Positions 48,717 through 49,364 of a stretch of DNA of 64,000 bases are shown piece after piece. Each line of letters begins with the position of its first letter. The first letter of the stretch is position 1. The DNA is from Acidobacteriota bacterium (lineage in GTDB: Bacteria > Acidobacteriota > Holophagae > Holophagales > Holophagaceae). The notes beneath the pieces are model-generated. The model made no database searches. It saw only the letters and a program-made list of their open reading frames with translations, and was not told the origin of the DNA. Location: positions 1 through 64,000 of the forward strand of contig BJFQ01000005.1 in NCBI GenBank assembly GCA_014189895.1, in the 5' to 3' direction. The translations under genes and the position numbers were made by a program.

Positions 48717-49364
48717 TTATTCGATTTTTACCCAACCGTACTGACGATCTTTGAGATCACCTCTCCGGTATGAGTAGTAGCGCTCAACATTGCAATAAGT
48801 ACATTCGGATTGACCGAACTCCAAATCTGGATCGAGGCCTTTAGCTCTTGCTTGTAAACGTATAAATCCAGGTAAATCAAAATAATCCTTTTGGTTTTCG
48901 TTCCTGCCGTTCGCTTGGATCCAATGTTGATGGGACTCGGCGGCTTTAAAAACTTCATTACCAACCTGAAAATGACACTTTAATATACACGGACCTATGG
49001 CCCACGCGGCGGTCTTTAAAAGACCGCCGCGTGCAATGAATAGGTCTATAAATTTACCCCAAATGCCACTTGTTGCGCCTCTCCATCCTGCATGAACAAC
49101 GCCGGCAAATACTCTGCCATCAATTAATTCTCCTCCAAATAAAATCGGGGCACAATCCGCCACTTTTACTCCAATTTTGACTCCACTCTGAGTTGTGAAT
49201 AGTGCATCTGCCGAGCCTAAGCTCTGATCAGAAATATATTCGGCAATATGATTACCGTGAACCTGTGATGCAGTTTTAATATCCTGTCCGGCCGAGAAGT
49301 CATTACGGTCAGTAAAGCCCCAAGTAATTGGGAGGTGTTTCGGGGACTTCAATTGCAGGACCAT
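48717..49364 (-). CDS. pgeF: PgeF/YfiH-type multicopper-like (laccase domain) purine/peptidoglycan-editing protein
   Basis: A 215-residue protein. VKVADCAPILF, VHAGWRGATSGI and WAIGPCILKCHF carry the histidine and cysteine ligands of the metal site. Family members act as purine nucleoside phosphorylases or edit peptidoglycan in E. coli. A perfect 15-bp inverted repeat lies within the gene at 49003-49033 without breaking the frame (the residues ARGGLLKTAAWA). Confidence 0.86.
   Translation of the reverse strand: MVLQLKSPKHLPITWGFTDRNDFSAGQDIKTASQVHGNHIAEYISDQSLGSADALFTTQSGVKIGVKVADCAPILFGGELIDGRVFAGVVHAGWRGATSGIWGKFIDLFIARGGLLKTAAWAIGPCILKCHFQVGNEVFKAAESHQHWIQANGRNENQKDYFDLPGFIRLQARAKGLDPDLEFGQSECTYCNVERYYSYRRGDLKDRQYGWVKIE
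49003..49033. repeat. Perfect 15-bp inverted repeat inside pgeF
   Basis: Arms CACGCGGCGGTCTTT and AAAGACCGCCGCGTG are exactly complementary, with one central A. The outer twelve pairs are GC-rich in an AT-leaning gene. Pairing was checked base by base. It would make a very stable hairpin in mRNA or a cruciform in DNA. Confidence 0.95.

Follow-up and report, generated by a model that had tools for sequence, protein, structure and literature searches.

A perfect 15-bp inverted repeat inside an intact pgeF gene, a possible mutational scar of template switching

Introduction

How might a long and perfectly symmetrical palindrome come to lie within a gene whose protein remains intact? The window analysed here, a stretch of 64,000 nucleotides, raises this question in a pgeF/yfiH-type gene, where 31 bases at 49003-49033 form a near-perfect palindrome with 15 of 15 pairs around the single unpaired A49018. 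The initial annotation had offered three ideas on its origin, namely the perfection of a quasi-palindrome by template switching, a hairpin in the mRNA, and a DNA site for a chromosome-organising protein.

In E. coli, template switching makes quasi-palindromes perfect or at least more nearly so (PMC7202029); template switching can also create hairpins in one step (PMC8794818). In yeast genes, multinucleotide mutations have been linked to perfect repeats whose arms reach 16 bp (PMC8604942). Template switching has also been proposed as the cause of an overabundance of short inverted repeats in the genes of prokaryotes, according to the citation of Ladoukakis and Eyre-Walker (2008) in PMC4060949.

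The genome under study is a draft of 1.17 Mb (1,165,493 bases) in 42 contigs. Its genus comprises three small genomes (G000, G001 and G002; 0.9-1.2 Mb), the rest of the family having mostly 1.6-5.2 Mb. A congener contig is found in the public collection as JALRCU010000042.1, labelled Holophagaceae bacterium HTM.8.

Results

The palindrome lies in frame within pgeF, the translation running ...ARGGLLKTAAWA..., and the minus-strand codons across it are GCA CGC GGC GGT CTT TTA AAG ACC GCC GCG TGG, encoding ARGGLLKTAAW. As the initial annotation had stated, the repeat leaves the reading frame unbroken: the open reading frame of 215 residues is intact and its product matches PF02578 (E = 9.7e-38). 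The position, the mismatch-free pairing of the 15-bp arms and the central A also proved exact (Table 1). With perfect arms and a spacer of 1 nt, the repeat has the form expected of a quasi-palindrome corrected by template switching, and no other inverted repeat in the window combines a perfect arm longer than 13 bp with a separation of at most 200 nt. In the predicted fold, a further pair of 7-bp arms flanks the palindrome, separated from the 15-bp stem by an asymmetric interior loop of 4 and 6 nt; this pair, a post hoc observation, has P = 0.00135 under synonymous recoding. Symmetry outside the outer pair was not significant. We rejected the idea that the palindrome is the core of a longer, ancient inverted duplication, as its flanks were not significant (P = 0.15 and 0.8).

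Table 1. Coordinates of pgeF, its palindrome and other inverted repeats in the same genome and genus
Feature	Position	Sequence	Context
pgeF/yfiH-type gene, polyphenol oxidoreductase laccase family, Cu-oxidase_4	48717-49364		minus strand; 215 aa, intact
First arm	49003-49017	CACGCGGCGGTCTTT (+ strand)	pgeF palindrome
Central unpaired base	49018	A (+ strand)	pgeF palindrome
Second arm	49019-49033	AAAGACCGCCGCGTG (+ strand)	pgeF palindrome
Outer flanking arm	48992-48998	GACCTAT (+ strand)	seen in fold; partner 49040-49046
Outer flanking arm	49040-49046	ATAGGTC (+ strand)	partner 48992-48998
18-bp perfect inverted repeat, 12-nt spacer	C3:19639-19686	GATTTGTTCAATTGCAGG / CCTGCAATTGAACAAATC	inside mdh
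13-bp perfect inverted repeat, N11 spacer	C14:16580-16616	TCATGCAGACCCC-N11-GGGGTCTGCATGA	argG 3' end, spanning stop region
Genus-conserved palindrome	C8:12521-12549; G001 C7:88679-88707	AAGCCCCTTGCCAA-N-TTGGCAAGGGGCTT	upstream of threonyl-tRNA synthetase-like gene in own genome
Genus-conserved palindrome	C4:47681-47709; G001 C12:110495-110523	TAATTGTGGACTTTTTAAGTCCACAATTA	just upstream of SufB-like gene in own genome
Palindrome	C7:7340-7365; also G001 C14:1180-1207	TTTTGAATAGTGTACACTATTCAAAA	start of S24-peptidase (LexA-like) gene in own genome
Identical 12-bp palindrome, reverse-complemented	C3:84010-84041; C25:12427-12458		near contig ends

To estimate how improbable such a repeat is, we scanned 1,163,834 of the 1,165,493 bases for perfect inverted repeats with loops up to 20, and we used as the null model 400 shuffles reassigning synonymous codons within genes over about 1.08 Mb of coding DNA. 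The shuffles yielded five perfect repeats with arms of at least 15 bp, corresponding to 0.0125 per genome, one such repeat in about 80 genomes of comparable size, and about 0.0007 per window. The view that chance would very rarely place such a repeat in 64 kb therefore holds, and across an unselected scan of many genomes a 15-bp palindrome is not extreme. Part of the symmetry is provided by the protein. Random synonymous codings of the peptide form 7.8 +/- 1.4 of the 15 pairs, and the exact probability of all 15, given the peptide and the codon usage of the genome, is 1.2e-6. The protein sequence thus sets up a quasi-palindrome in advance, the perfection of which it leaves unexplained. Ordinary codon choice, which the initial annotation had named as refuting its observation if it accounted for both arms, goes only part of the way, because the codons are ordinary singly and highly improbable jointly.

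We found pgeF orthologues in 34 of the 41 genomes searched, own genome counted, and no relative of the gene among viral contigs. Only one congener carries the gene (76% amino-acid and 73% nucleotide identity), at the same length (645 nt coding); there is no insertion in pgeF and its flank is not duplicated. At the site of the palindrome the congener has ATCGTGGGGGCCTACTGGAGACTGCGGCATG, with 6 of 15 pairs, matching the 6.5 +/- 1.3 expected from its peptide alone. Among 21 relatives, the congener included, the mean is 4.2 of 15 pairs, which is about chance. The two arms are identical to the congener at 8 and 10 of 15 positions, versus 73% gene-wide, and all 8 of the conserved degenerate codons within them differ, versus 48% gene-wide; these differences sit in the longest such run of pgeF, and an equally long run anywhere in the gene has P = 0.09. 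Allowing up to three mismatches, the 31-mer occurs once in its own genome and was not found in any of the 40 relatives.

Perfect repeats with arms of at least 13 bp elsewhere in the genome are mostly terminators, lying between genes as hairpins with A/T tails. Well inside genes, there are two repeats with arms of at least 15 bp, the one in pgeF and an 18-bp repeat in a gene that we judge from its sequence to be malate dehydrogenase (mdh). Two cases versus 0.0125 expected correspond to a Poisson P of about 8e-5, an excess suggesting a mutational process. The congener has GACCTGTTCAATTGCCTA / CCTGCAGTTGAGCAAATT at the mdh site, with 10 of 18 pairs. The differences completing the symmetry fall in both arms and include replacements of L by R and of V by I; the outgroups have diverged too far to show the polarity of these changes. 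A 13-bp repeat at the end of argG is likewise imperfect in both congeners, in forms such as TCATGCAGAT...ATCTTCATGA. In the 0.84 Mb of coding DNA of the congener G001 we found no clear intragenic repeat of at least 15 bp, and we therefore claim no genus-wide excess.

Discussion

The best-fitting reading is that the pgeF palindrome is a mutational scar from template-switch correction of a quasi-palindrome, a reading to which we lend slightly more belief than doubt. The segment coding for (A/H)RGGLL(K/E)TAAW is an imperfect inverted repeat owing to the protein sequence (GGN GGN ... ACN GCN). Replication probably stalled at this segment in the lineage of the present genome, and the nascent strand might have folded back or switched template. 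One arm would thereby have been recopied into an exact reverse complement of its partner, after which synthesis resumed on the proper template. Since the resulting codons would have been synonymous or tolerated, the change was not purged. The switch itself, the identity of the rewritten arm, the timing and the absence of a function are what we infer from these data.

Several lines of evidence favour template switching. Perfect arms of 15 bp are rarely expected from the codon shuffles, the longer mdh repeat provides a second in-gene case that is only partly paired in the congener, and the congeners carry imperfect forms of the argG-end repeat. The peptide predisposes the segment to pairing, and the conserved degenerate codons in the arms all differ from the congener, within the longest run of such differences in the gene (P = 0.09 for a run as long anywhere). 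The mechanism is, moreover, established in E. coli, with similar traces in yeast. Counting against it, the single congener bearing pgeF differs in each of the arms, and the relatives compared all diverge by more than about 5%, too far for a one-step event to be seen. The pairing in that congener equals the expectation from its peptide, so that no elevated quasi-palindrome is seen there, mdh and argG being clearer in this respect. The excess rests on two cases, and G001 has no clear counterpart.

Chance is a serious rival given the number of places searched, and we regard it as a real possibility, less probable than a template switch. The palindrome might have come from an ordinary choice among synonymous codons for a peptide whose coding sequence pairs by half in any case, and have been noticed since many windows were read. 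Every codon used is common in the genome, about half of the pairs come free with the peptide, roughly one in 80 such genomes is expected to carry such a repeat, G001 has none, and divergence from the congener affects both arms, as ordinary drift would give. The low probability of perfection given the peptide and the second, longer case in mdh, which together with pgeF exceeds the shuffle expectation, argue against chance. An artefact of assembly or amplification at a fold-back might be considered as well, because the genome is a draft and palindromes can induce template switching in vitro. We deem it very improbable, as the palindrome lies mid-contig, the frame and the protein family are intact on both sides, and neither the length of the gene nor its flank betrays a duplication.

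The palindrome could instead have been selected as a hairpin in the pgeF message, slowing ribosomes, protecting the transcript or attenuating transcription. The transcript strand is indeed predicted to fold strongly (-50.1 kcal/mol over 117 nt, z = -6.3), and the outer 7-bp arms extend the structure. The congener counterpart folds less strongly (-33.7, z = -1.3), however, without the strong hairpin, and the relatives pair at about chance, so that a conserved function of the palindrome is not supported by the sequence comparison and a conserved RNA structure element was rejected. Structure in the flanks beyond the palindrome, with the palindrome held fixed, reached only P = 0.07. Rfam gave no match at the site, its only matches in the window being tRNAs. 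An intrinsic terminator was also rejected, since the palindrome, flanked by GGCCATAGG / CAATGAATA, has no U-tract and is missing from the terminator scan. We thus find a selected mRNA hairpin improbable. Perfect dyad symmetry might suit the binding of a dimeric protein, or of a chromosome-organising factor, to the DNA. Chromosome-organising sites are recurrent and conserved, and the search of the genome and its relatives that the initial annotation had called for contradicts this idea: the palindrome is neither recurrent in the genome nor conserved among the 40 relatives, and it sits in the middle of a gene. We consider such a site exceedingly improbable. A mobile or repeated palindromic element of the REP, RPE or MITE type was rejected by the single copy and the lack of an insertion relative to the orthologues. 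The interpretation in the initial annotation is partly supported. Among its three ideas, template-switch perfection has the best support, from the mdh and argG cases, the excess and the peptide, whereas the mRNA hairpin is not supported as a conserved function and the chromosome-organising site is contradicted.

SbcD is a subunit of a hairpin nuclease; a search for it (TIGR00619) found none in the three genus genomes (G000, G001 and G002), and it is present in many, not all, other members of the bacterial family. The large subunit of exonuclease VII is present in the genome studied here. The absence of SbcD may let hairpins persist. That this small-genome lineage, with no SbcD found, would have a raised rate of in-gene template-switch perfection, accumulating long perfect hairpins and driving clustered synonymous and amino-acid changes, seems unlikely to us.

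The kind of event proposed for pgeF is already known, and the present instance is slightly more striking than usual given its companion in mdh. In the quasi-palindrome reporters in E. coli thyA and lacZ, an imperfect in-gene repeat similarly gives way to a hairpin that is perfect or more nearly so (PMC7202029, PMC6357072). Those changes were selected as mutants, whereas the pgeF event is deduced from divergent congeners and would have kept the frame and been tolerated. Template-switch changes in yeast also comprise perfect in-gene repeats, with arms of 7-16 bp, that are absent or imperfect in relatives and involve synonymous and amino-acid changes (PMC8604942); the yeast cases were polarised on a dense strain tree, whereas the pgeF palindrome was compared with divergent congeners. 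The excess of inverted repeats in prokaryotic coding sequences, as presented in PMC4060949, represents the same phenomenon with the same proposed cause, with arms of 6-9 bp compared with 15 bp in pgeF and 18 bp in mdh. In the mitochondria of Nematomorpha, perfect in-gene inverted repeats likewise occur where a conserved protein is still encoded, although those palindromes are numerous and far longer, up to 284 bp (PMC6649704). Together, pgeF and mdh might provide a clean natural example of an in-gene hairpin arising without selection for the hairpin, so that a coding region may be predicted to form a strong RNA or DNA structure that serves no function.

Other palindromes in this genome lie upstream of genes, at a gene start or near contig ends (Table 1). 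The one upstream of the threonyl-tRNA synthetase-like gene is possibly a regulatory site, and the one preceding the SufB-like gene might be an operator for an Fe-S regulator, while the palindrome at the LexA-like gene is likely an autoregulatory operator. The identical palindrome near the ends of contigs C3 and C25 suggests a repeat common to two assembly ends.
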